The notes under the pieces are model-generated. The model searched no databases and had not been told where the DNA came from. It saw only the letters and a list, made by a program, of their open reading frames with translations. Shown piece by piece: positions 6,702 through 15,292 of a stretch of 43,874 bases of DNA (position 1 is the stretch's first letter; each line of letters begins with the position of its first letter). The position numbers and the translations under genes were made by a program. This DNA is from Bryobacteraceae bacterium (GTDB taxonomy: Bacteria > Acidobacteriota > Terriglobia > Bryobacterales > Bryobacteraceae): positions 1 through 43,874 of the forward strand of contig JACZJQ010000348.1 in assembly GCA_014860455.1 (NCBI GenBank), written 5' to 3'.

Positions 6702-9359
6702 TCAGGCCGTGGCTGGGGCGACCCGCCCGCGCCTGATCTCGGTGATGCGGCAGGCGGACTTCATTTCGCAGTACTCGCAAACATCGTCGATTGCCGGATT
6801 CGGCGCGATCACGCCATCCAGGATACGCGCCGCCGCGTTGCTGGCGCGGTCGAGCGCGGACTGGATCATCTCTGCGGCGTCGCCCTTGAACTTCCAGGCC
6901 TCGGCTGAGCGCAGGGGTACGTATGCGGCCGCCTGCGGTTTGTAGCCCATATCGCGCAGCGCGGCGAGATAGATGCCGAGTTGCAGCAGGGCGCCGGCTT
7001 CCTCAAGGCGCTTGAGCCGGTCGAGTTTGCTGGCCCTGGAGTACTTGAAATCGATGACGCGGCAGTTGCCCTCTTCATCGACGTCGTAGCGGTCGATGCG
7101 TCCCTTTACAACCTCCCCTGAATCGAGCGTCACCTTTGCCGCCTGTTCAAAACTCGCCTGGAAGCCGGCATCGATCTTCGGATCGGCCGCGTAATGGCGA
7201 AGCGCCCGTAAAGCGCGGAGGCGTTCGAACTCCGCATGATAGCCCGGTGGCACCCTCAACTTGCGGGTCAGCCGCTCCCAGTGAGATTCGAAGATCCTTT
7301 CCACCGGCCCGCCGCGTTTGTGCCACTCGACGATTACGGCATGGACCAGCGACCCGAGCGCGAGCATATCCAGCCGCTCAGCCGGGCGCGCCGGCGCCTC
7401 GTCCAGATCAAGGCTATGGCGGGAGAAGTAGACGAATGGGCAGGAGAGAAACGTCTCCAGCGCGGTCCCGGAATGGGTTTCATGGACGCGGCGCAACGCG
7501 GTCCTCGCATCACCGGAAGCCAGCACAGTCGGTGGCGCGGCGGGCGCGGGACGCGACGGCCGGATGAGGACAGGCTGAGCGGGCGCGAGTTCGGCATCGA
7601 TGGACGCGAGTTCAAAGCTTGGCAACGTGGCCTCGCCCTTGGCGTCGAACTGAGGATAGGAAAGGACGGCCAGTTGGGTGGCGCGGGAGCGAGCCAGCGA
7701 GAACAGGAACCTTTCTTCCTGGTCGCGGCCCTCGCGGGTGCGCAGTAACACGCCCGACTGCCTTGCGCGGATGCGCAGATCGTTCGGCAAGATTGGCTCG
7801 ATACCCGGATGGCGGGGAAATTCACCCTCCAGCAGTCCGGCGACGAAAACAACCGGCAACTCCCACTGGCGCGCTTCATAGACATCCATCAACGCCACGG
7901 CGTCGCGGCGGTTGCTGGCCAGGCGCAGATCGCCGCCACGGATCGCCATCCAGGCATGACGCCAGTATTTCTGGAACGGCGCCGGTTCGTCGCCAAGCAG
8001 CGCCGCGCCGTCACTGAGCGCGGACCGGACCGAGGCGATGGCGGCGGCCCGGGCGCGCGACAGACGCGCCGACTCGATCGTGGCGCTGTCAGGAGGCAGA
8101 GCGAGCGCCAGCAGCGGCGCCAGCGACTCGGCCCACTGAGCCGCCGGAAGCGACTTGCCGTTCCAGTCCGCGGCAGCCTCCAGCGCAACAAGCGCCTCCA
8201 TGATCGCGTCGCCGCCCTGGCAGCGTTCGGCCTCGGCCTTCAGTCTGTCGATGCCGGAAAACGGCATGGCCTCAATCACCTTCGTGGTGAAACGCTCGAT
8301 CGCCGGCGACACGCCGGCCCGAAAAGCCGGATTGCGCAACACAGCCAGCGCCGCGCCGGATTCCCAGCCCGTCTCAATCGCAGCGGCCAAGTCCGACATC
8401 CAGACGGCGACAGGGTGCGCCGACAACGGTCTGGCCAGAAACGAACGGAACGGGATGCCGAAACGTGAAAAGGCAGACTCGATCAGTTCAGAAAACGATC
8501 CCGCCGACCTCACAATCACGCCAATCTCGCTGTACCCTAAGCCCTGATCCCGCAAACCGACGATGCGCCGGGCTATCTCATCGGCCTCGCGGTGAATGGT
8601 CGCCGCCGGGGCGATCTCGACCTTCGGCAAAGACCGCACGGCACTCAGGCGCTGCTCCTCGGCTCCAGCCGCGCGCAGGCTTTGGCGGGCCTCGGCCGCG
8701 CCGGGCCACTCGGGCAGCGTGATGGTGACTCGCAGGCGCCTTGCCGCGGCCCGGATGAGCGATACCTCGACAGGCGACAGCGTGAAGAAACCGTCGAAGT
8801 ACAGCGCATCGCAGCCGCTCAGAGACCTTTCGACGATTGCCGAAGCCGCCGCCGAGACCAGGCCCGGAGCCATTAGCAGTTGCCGGCGTGTCAGTTCGGC
8901 CTCCACCTCTGCGTAGACATTGCCCAGGTCCGCCATCGCCGGCGAAGTCCAGACGCGCATCGAGCCAAGAGCCTGCCACTGGTCCGGTCCGCAGCCCGCG
9001 CCGCCAAGCTCCAGCATTGCACCGGCGATTGCGGCAGCCAGGCCGGGCGTGTCCATGGCGCAGGCGAAAGCACGGGGCTTCAGCCGCTCAAGCGCCTCTT
9101 CCACAATCAGGGTCAACTCGGTTTCGCCGGCAGCCCGCTTCTCCGGCAACAACTCGGAGATCAGGCCCGCGAGCGTGATGATGCGCGAGGGCCGGACAAG
9201 GAAGCCCTCTCGCGCCAGCAGGTTGCGAGTATGGGCAGCCATGGTTGACGTCGGCACGACCAGGCGGAAACGGCCGTCGCCTTTCGACAAACGCGCACGG
9301 ATCTCGTCGAGGATCAAAGTCGTCTTGCCCGAACCGGGCGGGCCGATGATCAGTTTCAT
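6702..9359 (-). CDS. AddB-like PD-(D/E)XK nuclease/helicase-related protein
   Basis: An 885-residue protein laid out like AddB of AddAB recombination nucleases. An N-terminal Walker A, GPPGSGKT (6-13), opens an inactive-helicase-like body. The C-terminal nuclease has GRID (D756) and VIDFKYSR (D770, K772) of the PD-(D/E)XK fold. The iron-sulfur staple is formed by the cysteine of FLSCPF and C861/C864/C870 in VCEYCEMKSAC, spanning the nuclease as in AddB. The family resects double-strand breaks with AddA. No addA lies in the window; instead the gene ends a tight operon after the LptFG fusion (4-base gap). Likely DNA repair, with the partner encoded elsewhere or the protein working alone. Confidence 0.87.
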   Translation of the reverse strand: MKLIIGPPGSGKTTLILDEIRARLSKGDGRFRLVVPTSTMAAHTRNLLAREGFLVRPSRIITLAGLISELLPEKRAAGETELTLIVEEALERLKPRAFACAMDTPGLAAAIAGAMLELGGAGCGPDQWQALGSMRVWTSPAMADLGNVYAEVEAELTRRQLLMAPGLVSAAASAIVERSLSGCDALYFDGFFTLSPVEVSLIRAAARRLRVTITLPEWPGAAEARQSLRAAGAEEQRLSAVRSLPKVEIAPAATIHREADEIARRIVGLRDQGLGYSEIGVIVRSAGSFSELIESAFSRFGIPFRSFLARPLSAHPVAVWMSDLAAAIETGWESGAALAVLRNPAFRAGVSPAIERFTTKVIEAMPFSGIDRLKAEAERCQGGDAIMEALVALEAAADWNGKSLPAAQWAESLAPLLALALPPDSATIESARLSRARAAAIASVRSALSDGAALLGDEPAPFQKYWRHAWMAIRGGDLRLASNRRDAVALMDVYEARQWELPVVFVAGLLEGEFPRHPGIEPILPNDLRIRARQSGVLLRTREGRDQEERFLFSLARSRATQLAVLSYPQFDAKGEATLPSFELASIDAELAPAQPVLIRPSRPAPAAPPTVLASGDARTALRRVHETHSGTALETFLSCPFVYFSRHSLDLDEAPARPAERLDMLALGSLVHAVIVEWHKRGGPVERIFESHWERLTRKLRVPPGYHAEFERLRALRALRHYAADPKIDAGFQASFEQAAKVTLDSGEVVKGRIDRYDVDEEGNCRVIDFKYSRASKLDRLKRLEEAGALLQLGIYLAALRDMGYKPQAAAYVPLRSAEAWKFKGDAAEMIQSALDRASNAAARILDGVIAPNPAIDDVCEYCEMKSACRITEIRRGRVAPATA

Positions 9360-9363
9360 GGCG

Positions 9364-11682
9364 CTATGTCTTCAGGCGGGTCAACAGGTATGCGCCGGCC
9401 AAGGTGAAAACCACATGCGGAGACCACGCCGCCAGCGCGGGTGGCAGCAGTCCGACGTTGCCGAACTGCTCAAAAAGGAAGTTCAGCGCGAAATAGGCGA
9501 TGGCGATGACGAAGCTGACCCCGACGCCGGTCATCGCCCCGCGACTGCCGGTCAGGAAAGCAAACGGCACCGAAATCAACGCCATCAACAGCGCGAACAG
9601 CGGCGCCGAGAACTTGCGGTTGTACTGCACTTCGAGCGGCACCACGCTGAAGCCGCTTTGGCGCAGTTCGCCGATATAGTCGCGAAGCTGCTCGAAGTTC
9701 ATCTGCTTGTATGTCTTCACCTCCTTGGCGAACCACGACGGCGGCTCGTCCAGGGTGGCGAACGTGGCCGTTTCGCCGGAGAAATTGAGGAAACGGTCGT
9801 TCTTGGGTTTCAGGTCGCGGGCCCAGCCGTCCTGGAAGACCCAGGTCTTCAGCCGCGGTTCCCAGCGAGCCTGCGACGCCTTGATGTGACGTTTCAACTG
9901 AAACGCCGCGTCGTCGAACTCAAAGACGCTGACATCGCCCAGCATCTCCTTTTCCGGATCGAACAGCTTGTAGTAGTAAATCCTCGACCCGCGGCCGAAG
10001 ATCCACTGCCGGCCGGGGCTCAAATAGGTCTGCACGGGCCGGCCCTTGATCCGGTTGCGGATGGCGTCCTGAACCAGGTTGGCCTGGGTGACCACGTAGT
10101 GGTCGAAGGCAAAAAGCCCGATACTCAACATGGCCGCGGCAACAAAGACTGGCGTGGCCAGCCGGTAGAGGCTAACGCCGCAGGCCTTAAAGGCCGTGAT
10201 CTCGTTGTTCTTCGCCATCACGCCAAACGTCACCAGCACGGCCACCAAAACGCTGACCGGCGCCGCGTCGAAGATCAGCTTCGGCGCCAGAAACACCAGG
10301 TACCGGATCAGTTCCGGCATCGGGATCTGCTGTCTGAAGACGTCGCCCAACAGTTCAAAGAAGTTGAACACTTCGGTCAGCAGCACGAAACTGGCTAGCA
10401 GGACGCTGAAATAGAACAGGAAACTGGACAGCACCATCGCGTCAATCACCAGCGGCAGCGCCGCCACGCGCCTTCGCGAACCCGGCCTCGCCGTCGCCCG
10501 GCGCAGCGCCGAGGCGATGCGCCCGGTGTGCAGCGCCGCCCACGACTTCACCGTGCCGAACAGGTCCCGTCCCGCGGTCTTTTCCAGCCTGGCCAGCATC
10601 ACCACGCCGAAAATGGCGAAGAAGACGTTCGGTATCCAGACGGCCAGGGTGGCGTTGATGCGGCCTTCCCTGGCCAATCCCACCAGGCTCACCAGCGCCA
10701 TGTAGTAGAAAAACGCGAAAGCCACCGTGATCACGAACGCCGCCGACTTGCCGCCCTTGCGCGAACTCACGCCCAGCGGCATGCCCGTCATTGCCAGCAG
10801 CAGGCAGGCCAGGGGCAAGGCCAGCCGCTGGTGGAACTCGATGTTCGCTTCCGGGGACTTTGAAATCTCCGGGAACAGTTCCGAGGTGGATGTCGCCGAG
10901 AACAGTTTCGCCTTCACGGCCGCCCGTTCCCGAGCTTCGAGCACTTGCTCGCCCTGGGGATACGAGACCCGGTAGTAGGTCTCCGGATCCGGCCCGGCCT
11001 CGTAGGTGCTATTGTGCTGCATGGTCATTTGCAGCCGGTTTCGCGCGGCATCCGGGGTCACCATCGCTTCGCCCGTCAGCGTGACACGCGGACCCTCACC
11101 CTGCTCGCCCGACCCCATCGACTTCCGCTGCCCCGCCGGCGTCATGTCGGCGATGAAGATGTTCCGCCACCGCACCGGCTGGCCCGGCAGCACGTCACCG
11201 ACATAGAGGATCGTATTCGGAAAGCTCTCTTCGAACACCCTTGGCTGGATCTCGGCGGTCACCTGCGCCGCGCCCATTTCGTTGAGCACACGGATTGTTT
11301 CGGTGTTGCACCACGGCGTCAGCCAGAGCGAGCAGAATCCAGTAAACAGAACCGCCGCCAGTCCAAACGCCGCCGCCGGTAAGGCCAACCGCCGCGCCGG
11401 AATCCCGGAGGCGCGCAAAGCGATGATCTCGCCGTCGCTCGACATTCTCGACAACGCGATCAGCGTGCCTGACAGCACGCCAAGCGGTATGGTGAGCGGC
11501 ATGGTGGCCGGCAGCAGCAACAGAAACAGATAGCCGACGTTCGCGGGGCTTGTCGATGCGTTCACCAGGATGGCGAACAACTGACCCGCCTTCTGCAGAA
11601 ACAGAACGAAGACAAACAGCACCGACCCCAGCACGGCGCTGGCGAAGATCTCGACAAAAAGAGTTCGCCCGATCAGGCCCAT
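9364..11682 (-). CDS. lptFG: LptF-LptG fusion, LPS-transport permease
   Basis: A 772-residue inner-membrane protein containing two complete YjgP/YjgQ units in one chain. The first (about 1-395) has membrane segments near residues 8-30, 50-80 and 100-125, a periplasmic beta domain and the C-terminal trio starting at RLALPLACLLLAMTG. The second (about 405-772) repeats this plan, ending with FSAPLFALLMALISVPFAF and LAAWSPHVVFTLAGAYLL. In most Gram-negative bacteria LptF and LptG are separate and form the LptB2FG ABC transporter that extracts lipopolysaccharide. The fusion would fix their ratio. lptB, lptC and lptA are not nearby. It sits 12 bases after the PmbA-like gene and 4 before the AddB-like gene. 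Confidence 0.92.
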   Translation of the reverse strand: MGLIGRTLFVEIFASAVLGSVLFVFVLFLQKAGQLFAILVNASTSPANVGYLFLLLLPATMPLTIPLGVLSGTLIALSRMSSDGEIIALRASGIPARRLALPAAAFGLAAVLFTGFCSLWLTPWCNTETIRVLNEMGAAQVTAEIQPRVFEESFPNTILYVGDVLPGQPVRWRNIFIADMTPAGQRKSMGSGEQGEGPRVTLTGEAMVTPDAARNRLQMTMQHNSTYEAGPDPETYYRVSYPQGEQVLEARERAAVKAKLFSATSTSELFPEISKSPEANIEFHQRLALPLACLLLAMTGMPLGVSSRKGGKSAAFVITVAFAFFYYMALVSLVGLAREGRINATLAVWIPNVFFAIFGVVMLARLEKTAGRDLFGTVKSWAALHTGRIASALRRATARPGSRRRVAALPLVIDAMVLSSFLFYFSVLLASFVLLTEVFNFFELLGDVFRQQIPMPELIRYLVFLAPKLIFDAAPVSVLVAVLVTFGVMAKNNEITAFKACGVSLYRLATPVFVAAAMLSIGLFAFDHYVVTQANLVQDAIRNRIKGRPVQTYLSPGRQWIFGRGSRIYYYKLFDPEKEMLGDVSVFEFDDAAFQLKRHIKASQARWEPRLKTWVFQDGWARDLKPKNDRFLNFSGETATFATLDEPPSWFAKEVKTYKQMNFEQLRDYIGELRQSGFSVVPLEVQYNRKFSAPLFALLMALISVPFAFLTGSRGAMTGVGVSFVIAIAYFALNFLFEQFGNVGLLPPALAAWSPHVVFTLAGAYLLTRLKT

Positions 11683-11694
11683 GGGGTCACCGCA

Positions 11695-13530
11695 TCAGGG
11701 CGCCGATGGCGGCGGCACCACGGGCAGCTTTGGCGCGTCATCGCGAGCAGGCTCGAGTTCGAGATCCTCGAACAGCACGCCCGGAGCCGCCACCGAGCAT
11801 CCGACGACGGAACTGCCCGCACCGGACAACGCCAGCGGCATCCCGTTATCCACATAACTGAAAACGGCCGTCTCGCGCGAAGCGGCCATGATGTCGCGGA
11901 ACGAGCGCGTGCCCAGGTTCCTGAACCGCAACCCCCGGACCAACTTCTCCGTGCCGTCCGGGTACACCTGATAGACCAGCACGGGATTGCTCACCGGACG
12001 CCCCCCGCCGCCGCTGGCCGTCCGCTGGCTCAGCCGGCGCAGGTCGTCGATCGACCCGTGCGACGGGAAGTCCATCTTGCGGACGATAATCCCATAGGGC
12101 TTGCCCTGCTGCTTGATCATCTCGATCATGCGCGTCTTCAGCGCGCTCAGAGCCTCGGACTCGGCCGCCTTCACAAACAGGTTCGAGATCCTCGGCTGGC
12201 GCACCCCAAAGGCGCCCGGCAGCCGCGCCCGGCCCGTCGAAGCCAGCACGCCCCGCACCGGCTGGCGAGTGGTCAACAGCGTTTTCAACACGCCTTTTTC
12301 CACCACGTTCAACGTCCGCGGCGTCACGCCCTGCATGTCCACTTTGTATTGGCCCGCCAGCGGCTGGCCGTCGTGCACGGTTGCGCTGGGATCGTCGATC
12401 AGATCCATCCATTCCGGCAGCACGCGGGAGCCGAGACGCGCCTCGTAGTCGCTGCCTCCGAACGGCACTGACCGGCCTGGTTCGGCCACCGGGCGGCGGA
12501 CCACCGAGAGGTGGGCGCCGACGATCTCGCCGAAGAGTTGCGCCGCGGCCTGCGGCTCGAACAGCACCGGCCCGACGTAGGTCTCGCCTCGCGGCGCCTC
12601 GGCCAGACGGTCCAGATTTGCCGCCACCGCGCGCACGTGGGCGTTCAACGCCTGGTCGCCGGGCAGCCCCGACGGGCTCAGTGCGACGAGTGTCGCCCCG
12701 TCATAAACCATGAATCCATCCTGGGCCTGACGGCTTCCGCGGGCATGGAGGTAGGCGATCTGATCGCCCACCCGGACCCAACTTCCCTCGCTGTTGGCGT
12801 AGTAGAACGTGCCTTGCGAAACCTGAAACTCAACCAGTCCCCCCGTATTCTCGGGCGAGGCCGAGAACAGCGCGGACAACTCCCTCACACGCCGCGACCA
12901 GAGGTCCTTGTCGGCCGGAGGCTGTTTCACCTGCTCAATGAGAATCGTCCGCGGGGCCCCGCTGAAATCGGGCAGCCGGTCCTGCACGGTTACGCCTCGC
13001 AGCGACGCCGTCTTGCGCCCGATCGCCTCCACCGCCGTCTTGTAGGCGCGGTCGAGACTCAGCCACATGGCGGCTCGCAGGTTCAATAAGTGGTCGTCCA
13101 GCGGCAGCAGGCCGGTATCGTATCGGGTGCCGGCATAGAAATCACTGTAGATGGATCCGGTATTGTCGAAGTCCGGCCGGCCCACCCGGACGCCAACCCG
13201 GAGCGGCCTGAACCGGTTCTCCCTCAGGTCGAAAATCGCGCCGAAAGAGGCTGCGATCGCCATGGTCCGCGCGTCCTCGACGCTGATTTCGACGTAGTAG
13301 GGTGGATCGCTCATCAACCGCAGGTCGCGGGCCCGGCCAAGTTCCTCCGCGGCGGCCCGCAGGATGGGATCCGAGTTGATGGCCGCCGTCAATTTCGCAG
13401 CCGCTGGATCGGGCTTCTGAGCCTGCGCAGGCCCACCGCTCTGTCCGGCTCCGCCCGCCGCGGCCTGCCGCAGGCACAATGCGCCACCGGCCAGAAGAAT
13501 CGGCAACGTGAGCAGGATTCCCGGTTTCAT
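11695..13530 (-). CDS. Secreted PmbA/TldE-like partner lacking the zinc motif
   Basis: A 611-residue TldD/PmbA-family protein with an N-terminal signal peptide (about 1-25). Conserved blocks are recognisable (YVGPVLFEPQAAAQLFGE, FGVRQPRISNLFVKA, GIIVRKM, RGLRFRN) but the zinc-protease motif is absent: where TldD has HExxxH, this has GEIVGAHLS. That is the pattern of TldE (PmbA), the non-catalytic half of the TldD/TldE heterodimeric metalloprotease. The ATG overlaps the stop of the upstream TldD gene (ATGA), supporting co-translation and complex formation. Unusual point: classic TldD/E are cytosolic, whereas both of these carry export signals. Confidence 0.85.
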   Translation of the reverse strand: MKPGILLTLPILLAGGALCLRQAAAGGAGQSGGPAQAQKPDPAAAKLTAAINSDPILRAAAEELGRARDLRLMSDPPYYVEISVEDARTMAIAASFGAIFDLRENRFRPLRVGVRVGRPDFDNTGSIYSDFYAGTRYDTGLLPLDDHLLNLRAAMWLSLDRAYKTAVEAIGRKTASLRGVTVQDRLPDFSGAPRTILIEQVKQPPADKDLWSRRVRELSALFSASPENTGGLVEFQVSQGTFYYANSEGSWVRVGDQIAYLHARGSRQAQDGFMVYDGATLVALSPSGLPGDQALNAHVRAVAANLDRLAEAPRGETYVGPVLFEPQAAAQLFGEIVGAHLSVVRRPVAEPGRSVPFGGSDYEARLGSRVLPEWMDLIDDPSATVHDGQPLAGQYKVDMQGVTPRTLNVVEKGVLKTLLTTRQPVRGVLASTGRARLPGAFGVRQPRISNLFVKAAESEALSALKTRMIEMIKQQGKPYGIIVRKMDFPSHGSIDDLRRLSQRTASGGGGRPVSNPVLVYQVYPDGTEKLVRGLRFRNLGTRSFRDIMAASRETAVFSYVDNGMPLALSGAGSSVVGCSVAAPGVLFEDLELEPARDDAPKLPVVPPPSAP

Positions 13531-15239
13531 TGCGCCCCTCCGCTGATCATCGGCCTGGGCAGCAGCGGCGGACGGTCGGTTTGCGTGGGCTTTCGCTGCA
13601 CCTCAATCTCGGAGACCAGCAACGCCGGCGAAACGGCCGAAACCGGCACCTGCCCCGACTCGGCGCCGCAGTACCCGTTGAAGACCTCGTCCTTGTCGCT
13701 GGTGGCCAGAATCTTCTCGAAACTCGCCAGTGGCGTGCCGACGATGTCCACGCCCCTCACCAGCTCAGGCGGGCGGTTCGGATAGATCCGGTACACCACC
13801 AGCGGGATCACGGTGAACGCCTGCAGCCCTCTCCGCCGCGTTGTCGTGTAGCCGCCTGTGACCGTATCGAAAAGAAGCCCGTACGGCTTGCCCTGGCGAA
13901 TGACCTCTTCAATCAGCATCTTGCGGAGTTCGGCATCGCTCACCCGCTTGGCCGACTCTACGATCAGGTTTGACTGGCGCGCAATCGCCTCATAGCCCGG
14001 CTGGCGCCGGCCATGGCCGTTCGAACTCAGCCCGCTGGGGATCGGTTCCCGCGAAACCAGGAAGCTCTTCAGCGTCCCGCTTTCCACAACGCGCACCGGT
14101 TGTGCCGGGCGGCCTTCGTCGTCGAAGGCGTACCAGCCGTTCAGGTCCACGCCGGCCGCGGATTTGCGGGTTGGGTCGAAAAGGACGGAAAGGAACGGCG
14201 GCAGCACCTGCTTGTCCAGACTGTTTGTGAACGTCTGGCCCTCGGTTTCGTCCTTCTGGCGGTGGCCCTCGACACGGTGTCCGAAAATCTCATGGAAGAA
14301 CACGCCTGCGGCCCGCCCCGACAGGATCGCCGGCCCGACATAGGGGTCCACCGGCTGAGCCTTTAGCAGCGCGGACACGGTCAGCGCCGTCCTTCTTGCG
14401 GCCTCGATCAGAACGTCGTCCTTGGGTAGTCCGGCTGGGTCGGCGGCGTCAAAACTCTCTGTGGTGACAAGGTCCTGCCCGTCGTAGGCCTTCACCCTGG
14501 CCACGACGCCCCAGCGGGCAAAGTTTCTGCCGTGGCTCACCGATGTCCCTTCGGAGTCGACAAACGTCCGGCGCTCCGTGCGCACATTCAGCGAGACCGT
14601 CGAGGTGATGACGCCGAAGACGCCGGTGGCCGCCGAATGTTTGCGCAGACGGTTTGCCCATTCCTGCGCGTTGACCTTGGTTGCCGGCGTATCCACCGCG
14701 CCGGTCACCGGCTTCTCGGCCGAAAAATCAGGAACCTTGGCCGCCGAAACCGCCAGGCCGGTAGAACTCTTAACCTTGATATATCTCTGCGATGCAACGC
14801 GCCACGCGCGGTCGGTTTCACGCCACAGGATCCGCCGCACCGAGGCTTCGTTATCCTCCACCGGCAGTTCGGCGGAGGCCGAAAAGCTCTGCCGCTCGCC
14901 GCCGGCGACACGGTAGTTATCGAACTCCGGGGAACCGACCCGGACTGAAACGTCCAGCCGCCGCCGGCGCTGTGAGCTCGAGTTTTGCAGCGAGCCCAGG
15001 ACGGCCGAGATGTCGTGCGAATCGACCTCGGTCACCTGGTAAGAGATGTAGTAAGCCGCCGGTTCGGCTTTCGAAAGGCCGTCCAGATTTCGCTTCAATT
15101 CCGAGGAGAGAATCTGGGCAAGGGCGGGCGAGGCCGGCACAGCCGGATTCTTCGAGGCTTGGCCGTTTGCGGCGCCAGGCGCCTGCGTCAGCGCGTAGAG
15201 AGTGAGAACTCCCAGCGCTCCCAGAGGTTTGCGCAACAC
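13527..15239 (-). CDS. Secreted TldD-like zinc metallopeptidase
   Basis: A 570-residue TldD-family protease. The zinc site HEIFGHRVEGH (316-326) is intact, followed by family blocks GLSSNGHGRRQPGY, SNLIVESAKRV and GYTTTRRRGLQAF. TldD with TldE cleaves unstructured peptides, for example in modified-peptide maturation and degradation of the CcdA antitoxin. I place the start at the GTG at 15239: it yields a clean signal peptide (LGALGVLTLYALTQAPGAANG). Longer versions with an ATG at 15572 would read through the response-regulator gene in another frame. The PmbA-like partner overlaps its stop. No peptide precursor or maturation gene was recognised next to it. Confidence 0.87.
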   Translation of the reverse strand: MLRKPLGALGVLTLYALTQAPGAANGQASKNPAVPASPALAQILSSELKRNLDGLSKAEPAAYYISYQVTEVDSHDISAVLGSLQNSSSQRRRRLDVSVRVGSPEFDNYRVAGGERQSFSASAELPVEDNEASVRRILWRETDRAWRVASQRYIKVKSSTGLAVSAAKVPDFSAEKPVTGAVDTPATKVNAQEWANRLRKHSAATGVFGVITSTVSLNVRTERRTFVDSEGTSVSHGRNFARWGVVARVKAYDGQDLVTTESFDAADPAGLPKDDVLIEAARRTALTVSALLKAQPVDPYVGPAILSGRAAGVFFHEIFGHRVEGHRQKDETEGQTFTNSLDKQVLPPFLSVLFDPTRKSAAGVDLNGWYAFDDEGRPAQPVRVVESGTLKSFLVSREPIPSGLSSNGHGRRQPGYEAIARQSNLIVESAKRVSDAELRKMLIEEVIRQGKPYGLLFDTVTGGYTTTRRRGLQAFTVIPLVVYRIYPNRPPELVRGVDIVGTPLASFEKILATSDKDEVFNGYCGAESGQVPVSAVSPALLVSEIEVQRKPTQTDRPPLLPRPMISGGAQ

Positions 15240-15292
15240 GATAGCAGAATAGCACGCGTGTTCAGAGCGGTTCCGCGCGGCCGGGTCTGGAC

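Follow-up and report, generated by a model that had tools for sequence, protein, structure and literature searches.

A TldD-family gene pair with signal-peptide-like N-termini and a catalytically dead, apparently TldD-derived partner in a Bryobacteraceae bacterium

We analysed a stretch of 43,874 nucleotides from a soil acidobacterium (Bryobacteraceae bacterium, assembly GCA_014860455.1, contig JACZJQ010000348.1, positions 1 to 43,874 of the forward strand), hereafter called the window, and concentrated on two genes encoding proteins of the TldD family. One codes for a tldD-like catalytic protein and the other for a partner devoid of the zinc motif. The two genes lie on the minus strand and overlap by 4 bp. 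A first reading of the letters alone, here called the initial annotation, had placed the pair at the same coordinates and described it as an exported TldD/TldE heterodimer. The features of the pair are as follows.

13527-15239, minus strand: tldD-like catalytic gene, 570 residues, GTG start, signal-peptide-like segment at about residues 1-30
14277-14294, minus strand: HEIFGH zinc motif, residues 316-321 of the tldD-like protein; by homology, the counterparts of His262 and His267, the first two zinc ligands of E. coli TldD
13668-13670, minus strand: Cys524 of the tldD-like protein, its sole cysteine; predicted third zinc ligand (E. coli Cys454)
11695-13530, minus strand: catalytically dead partner gene, 611 residues, signal-peptide-like N-terminus, GGAG-type ribosome site
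12514-12531, minus strand: GEIVGA, at residue 334 of the partner, the position equivalent to HExxxH

Both proteins are members of the TldD/PmbA superfamily (M103, formerly U62). The model for the third domain of PmbA/TldD, PF19289, has a curated cut-off of 22 bits and matches the tldD-like protein with 87.2 bits (E 1.1e-24) and the partner with 56.3 bits (E 3.4e-15). The Pfam search gave no match of the first-domain model, PF01523, in either protein. Among PDB sequences, the tldD-like protein matches E. coli TldD best (5nj5, E 5.5e-11), while the partner matches a PmbA with an E of 0.1 only. Predicted models reach a mean predicted local distance difference test score of 62.9 for the tldD-like protein and 71.4 for the partner, and are moderate because the alignments hold just 14 close rows. 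For each model the only clear structural matches are chains of the TldD/E family (16 each at E up to 0.001). When aligned to these chains with VIA-align, the partner obtains Z up to 28.3 over 433 residues and the tldD-like protein 14.5 over 363 residues, and the next unrelated folds have Z of 5.2 and 4.5, respectively. Hence, the fold spans most of the length of both proteins, even where Pfam sees nothing.

We searched 396 genomes of Acidobacteriota with a profile of the tldD-like protein, scoring up to three candidates per genome. Matches at E 1e-70 or better occurred in 65 genomes, and the next best genome reached 2.2e-20. Three of the 65 form a group that we call F27 (L076-L078; L numbers designate loci). 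F27 genomes have one copy, with HExxxH, CGAESG and 5-8 cysteines; no partner was found in any of the three (one of which is 81% complete), and the proteins, which lack a signal-like N-terminus, look cytosolic. The other 62 genomes include 38 from the window's class, where 47 were sampled, and 24 from outside it, where 349 were sampled. A canonical PF01523 match is also present in 45 of the 62 and absent from 17; the pair does not therefore seem to depend on a canonical one. The genome of the window encodes both, since its two PF01523 matches form a canonical TldD/TldE pair on another contig (C22). We fetched 40 of these regions from across the phylum: 33 have both genes (L079 with only part of the tldD-like gene), two are split copies from one genome, three are F27, and two are cut or broken. 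The closest relative found, at 88% identity, is a metagenome-assembled genome titled Candidatus Solibacter sp. Another contig of a metagenome-assembled genome, L018, is titled Arcobacter sp. and has this same acidobacterial gene order with 46-84% protein identity; its title or binning is probably wrong. Spread by plasmids was considered and rejected: in 72,556 plasmid records, a tblastn search with the tldD-like protein found just two weak matches (25-28% identity). In viral contigs, 28 stretches fitted a peptide pattern, none of which tblastn confirmed as a relative.

As the initial annotation had remarked, the tldD-like protein retains HEIFGH at residue 316 and the partner has GEIVGA in its place. 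The roles of the corresponding zinc ligands are known from E. coli TldD (available excerpts of PMC5810440). Among the fetched regions, HExx-GHR-x-E is present in all 38 catalytic rows (three of them F27) and HExxxH in none of the 34 partners. CGAESG is found in 37 of the 38 catalytic rows; in the remaining row, the gene is broken across two frames. The absence of HExxxH is by itself unremarkable, as canonical TldE lacks it too. What appears to be unusual is that the partner would have lost the motif in a separate event.

We tested the origin of the partner by profile comparison and phylogeny. The profiles of the tldD-like protein and of the partner match over their full length (531 columns, E 1.3e-79). 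A tree built from 57 rows and 457 columns places 15 TldDs of the window's type, 15 partners and three F27 proteins on one side of a branch with support 100/100. The seven canonical TldEs stand apart (100/99), and the partners form a separate branch (100/97). A tree of the C-terminal part (52 rows, 249 columns, made without the longest rows) agrees. Constraining the partner and canonical TldE to one clade costs 161 log-likelihood units and is rejected by the approximately unbiased (AU) test (p-AU 1.4e-40). Both trees and this test thus reject the identification of the partner as a canonical TldE, and the name given to it by the initial annotation is not borne out. Since its nearest rows (the TldDs of the window's type, F27 and a branch of TldDs with HESxGH) all carry HExxxH, the most plausible reading is that it lost the motif independently of TldE. 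A derivation of TldE from TldD through the loss of catalytic residues has already been put forward in PMC10885120 (in the excerpts at hand). The partner is apparently a degenerate paralogue of its catalytic neighbour, and these relationships suggest that an active/dead pair evolved a second time. The grouping of the partner with the neighbouring TldD to the exclusion of F27 is one possible branching order of the three (p-AU 0.316, C-terminal part), and F27 might reflect the state before the duplication.

The initial annotation had described apparent signal peptides. Both window proteins do begin with positive charge followed by a hydrophobic segment, and such segments recur in their relatives. 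The letters of the N-termini are poorly conserved, and it is therefore the property that is kept rather than the sequence. We scored it as the best mean Kyte-Doolittle hydropathy of 12 residues at the N-terminus and used a level of 1.6. The window proteins score 2.00 (tldD-like) and 2.27 (partner), against 0.47 and 1.02 for the TldD and TldE of the canonical pair in the same genome. Three of the 15 other open reading frames (ORFs) in the window reach 1.6: an alpha-galactosidase (2.27), the LptFG membrane protein (2.95) and the doubtful ORF w3980 (2.20). In acidobacterial relatives, the level is reached by 46 of 48 tldD-like proteins and 45 of 47 partners (91/95 together). For L051-L090 we took the first candidate start, a choice that biases the score upwards, and we left out three further rows in which no start precedes the anchor. 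The two tldD-like proteins below 1.6 are L080, where a frame break splits the gene, and L061, which has unread bases. None of the three F27 proteins reaches 1.6. Under similar scoring, 6 of 18 other acidobacterial TldDs do so, and these are exactly the six with starts resembling twin-arginine translocation (Tat) signals (0/12 without such a start). The partner of the window has AAA at residues 23-25. An AxA triplet occurs within the first 30 residues in 9 of 14 tldD-like proteins and in 14 of 15 partners, in some cases inside the hydrophobic segment.

The N-termini of some relatives have other features. Lipobox-like ends are scattered among them (LLASC in the tldD-like protein of L051, FLAAC in the partner of L085). 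Tat-like twin-arginine starts are found in the partners of L008 (SRRGWL), L009 (RRRDLW) and L051 (SRRGFM), whose tldD neighbours look Sec-type.

The cysteine content is low. Counted after residue 45, the mean is 1.5 in the 48 tldD-like proteins and 0.7 in the 47 partners, against 6.3 in F27 (n = 3). Counts over the last 440 residues in the remaining groups give 3.0 (n = 11) and 5.1 (n = 7) for other acidobacterial TldDs and 1.7 (n = 6) for TldEs. The comparison yields p 1e-6 (fewer than in other acidobacterial TldDs) and p 0.045, both of which are too small because the rows are related.

Upstream of the tldD-like gene, its frame stays open as far as 15572, and the choice of the start codon consequently matters. 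We aligned the start regions of the window and of all close loci except L017, which is cut (13 of 14), the GTG starts having been chosen before the alignment. Of its 176 columns, those of TGnTATnCT and of the GTG start alone are fully invariant, with 6-9 bases between the two in 14/14 loci. In the window this box is the following feature.

15246-15254, minus strand: TGCTATTCT, an extended -10-like box that ends 6 bases before the GTG start; box and start together occupy 15237-15254

With a -10-type box so near the start codon, the mRNA would have its 5' end at the GTG or immediately beside it and be leaderless. The box is thus a probable promoter of a leaderless tldD-like transcript in the window and its close relatives. 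Similar, non-identical boxes precede the gene in two more loci of the same family (L051 and L052), and the layout was not seen as a rule in the other phylum regions inspected. The partner gene of the window, like many of its counterparts, has a ribosome site of GGAG type. The initial annotation had allowed that the N-termini might stem from mis-called starts; for the tldD-like gene this is unlikely, given the invariant GTG and the upstream box.

A gene for a regulator of NarL/LuxR type lies 53 bp upstream of the tldD-like gene on the same strand, and 12 bp downstream of the partner gene begins a fused permease gene.

9364-11682, minus strand: fused lptF-lptG permease gene, 772 residues, matching TIGR04407 and then TIGR04408

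Behind it, at 6702-9359, the window encodes an 885-residue AddB-like protein that contains a PD-(D/E)XK nuclease domain and scores far under the AddB equivalog cut-offs. LptFG adjoins the pair in the window and in 11 of the 14 close loci, with near-full-length matches in those 11. In L008 and L019 it was not found in the roughly 4 kb behind the pair, and the sequence of L017 stops before it could be seen. Among the 40 phylum regions, it matches in two, both from the window's own family, and in none of the other 38, several of which are cut by contig ends. L014, L016 and L051 have the order tldD-partner-lptFG although no upstream gene of the window is recognised there. The adjacency on which the initial annotation based a coupling to Lpt was thus seen in the window and its close relatives only, and such a coupling is not borne out as a general rule. 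The pattern fits an operon at the level of the family rather than a general functional tie.

Taken together, the data lead us to favour, with fair though incomplete confidence, a zinc peptidase of the TldD family (M103) that acts outside the cytoplasm; its most likely form is a periplasmic heterodimer exported by Sec. We infer export, leader cleavage, heterodimer formation, zinc binding and peptidase activity from sequence. The export of both subunits is likely: this claim of the initial annotation, although not proven, is supported by the recurrent hydrophobic N-termini, the conserved GTG and box, and the few cysteines. In such an enzyme, one subunit would contribute the zinc site (HExxxH and one Cys) and the other, a degenerate copy of the first, would supply the other half of a hollow shell. 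For E. coli TldD/E, it has been proposed that unfolded N-termini enter a closed shell and are trimmed off in short pieces (available excerpts of PMC5810440). The acidobacterial enzyme would, by analogy, work processively, drawing in unfolded peptides from their N-terminal end and releasing short fragments. The conserved zinc ligands make a similar chemistry likely, and a substrate different from that of classical TldD/E is a reasonable inference.

Several observations weigh against this interpretation. The hydropathy score alone is a weak and uncalibrated test of export: the best 12-mers of the mature parts reach 1.93 and 1.96 in the two window proteins. In 11 of 14 tldD-like proteins and 11 of 15 partners, no other 12-mer is as hydrophobic as the N-terminal one, but this does not hold for the remaining 3/14 and 4/15. 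Two partners, L008 and L014, stay below 1.6, and the first of them has the Tat-like SRRGWL start. The tldD-like protein of the window has its first AxA triplet at residue 36 and none earlier. Between two and five cysteines occur in 18 of the 48 catalytic copies. Concerning the catalytic site, the model of the tldD-like protein is of low confidence and poor across much of the catalytic half. Lys456, which tethers the clamp in E. coli TldD, is replaced by Ala in the group, and Asp272 by His in the window protein. The active-site wall therefore differs from that of E. coli TldD. Finally, the group sits at the end of a long branch (1.99 changes per column in the main tree and 1.45 in the C-terminal one), which makes its place among TldDs unsure.

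Other explanations of the N-termini have to be considered. The segments could be uncleaved membrane anchors or lipoprotein signals, with the pair sitting on the periplasmic face of the membrane instead of being free. This gains some weight because the tldD-like protein of the window lacks an early AxA triplet, and the lipobox-like ends of L051 and L085 point the same way. It is nonetheless unlikely, as these ends are scattered, the partner has its AAA triplet, and early AxA triplets are found in most of the tldD-like proteins and nearly all partners. Alternatively, both proteins could be cytosolic, their hydrophobic N-termini resulting from wrong starts or chance, a view that benefits from the long open frame in which a start had to be chosen and from the uncalibrated score. 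We regard it as very improbable in light of the box and GTG invariant in 14/14 loci, the difference between 91/95 proteins and 0/12 TldDs without Tat-like starts, and the scarcity of cysteines.

The function of an exported pair could also be another one. The wider TldD/TldE family is said to include N-deacetylases, to go by a title of Vobruba from 2022. Instead of a peptidase, the pair could be an exported N-deacetylase or amidase, in which case its target could be an envelope amide. The group has active-site residues of its own (CGAE for CGKE, GHR after the second ligand), it lacks the clamp lysine, and in the close relatives of the window it neighbours a lipopolysaccharide (LPS) transport gene. 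However, HExxxH and Cys are kept as in peptidases and this neighbourhood is not seen beyond the close relatives, so that we find the proposal improbable. A direct service to LPS export, e.g. the trimming or clearing of stalled Lpt components, would account for the single operon with LptFG, whose order persists in the window, most close loci and both other regions of the family, even without recognised upstream genes. It has, in our view, only a slim chance of being correct, since the gene has no match in 38 of the 40 phylum regions (several of which end with their contig) and none in about 4 kb behind the pair in L008 and L019.

A bolder extension of the periplasmic peptidase interpretation combines these elements. 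A second active/dead TldD heterodimer, independent of the E. coli type, would have arisen in Acidobacteriota by duplication of TldD and silencing of one copy; both copies would be exported and work in the periplasm, their cysteines reduced to hardly more than the zinc ligand; in Bryobacteraceae it would have been recruited to the LPS-export operon, where it would process an envelope peptide or amide. We advance this whole scenario with little confidence. A pair that arose anew from a duplicated TldD and resides outside the cytoplasm would indicate that evolution favours the active/dead shell in this peptidase and that the enzyme can act on exported peptides. An annotation as 'TldE' can mask a different evolutionary origin. 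Homologues of TldD/TldE, whose everyday role is unclear, are reported from about 60% of bacterial genomes (excerpts of PMC5810440).

Among the papers listed by our literature search, no title or opening of an abstract described an exported TldD/TldE pair, which may nonetheless have been described before. An exported TldD as such is probably not new. Other acidobacterial TldDs have an apparent export signal, with an RRxF motif instead of a Sec-type segment: RRxF-type Tat-like starts are found in 6 of the 15 ORFs inspected (L092, L097, L100, L103, L105 and L107). These proteins fall in other branches of the tree than the pair described here. In the HESxGH branch, Asp replaces the ligand Cys in L097, L105, L109 and L117. 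The other four proteins with Tat-like starts (L092, L100, L103 and L107) keep the Cys. We rejected a tie between this replacement and the Tat-like start: the two features occur together in L097 and L105, but no such start was visible in L109 and L117. An Asp at this position is also mentioned for Gemmatimonas in the excerpts of PMC5810440. In Myxococcus xanthus, MXAN_2519, a 'Peptidase U62', is listed under the mass spectrometry of outer-membrane-vesicle proteins in the accessible part of PMC4158809; it resembles the pair in its TldD-family annotation and in having been detected beyond the cytoplasm. F27 shares the tree branch, HExxxH and CGAESG with the pair, but unlike the pair it is a single gene without a signal-like N-terminus. 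E. coli TldD/TldE (PmbA; MEROPS M103; excerpts of PMC5810440) has in common with the pair the two-subunit TldD fold, with HExxxH and a C-terminal Cys in one subunit and no zinc ligands in the other. It differs in being cytosolic and of PF01523 type, whereas the acidobacterial pair has signal-peptide-like N-termini and no PF01523 match. The group also departs from most canonical rows at two places, with CGAE for CGK and GHR for GHG. Finally, the dead subunit of the acidobacterial pair is apparently a paralogue of the TldD beside it, and not a TldE.

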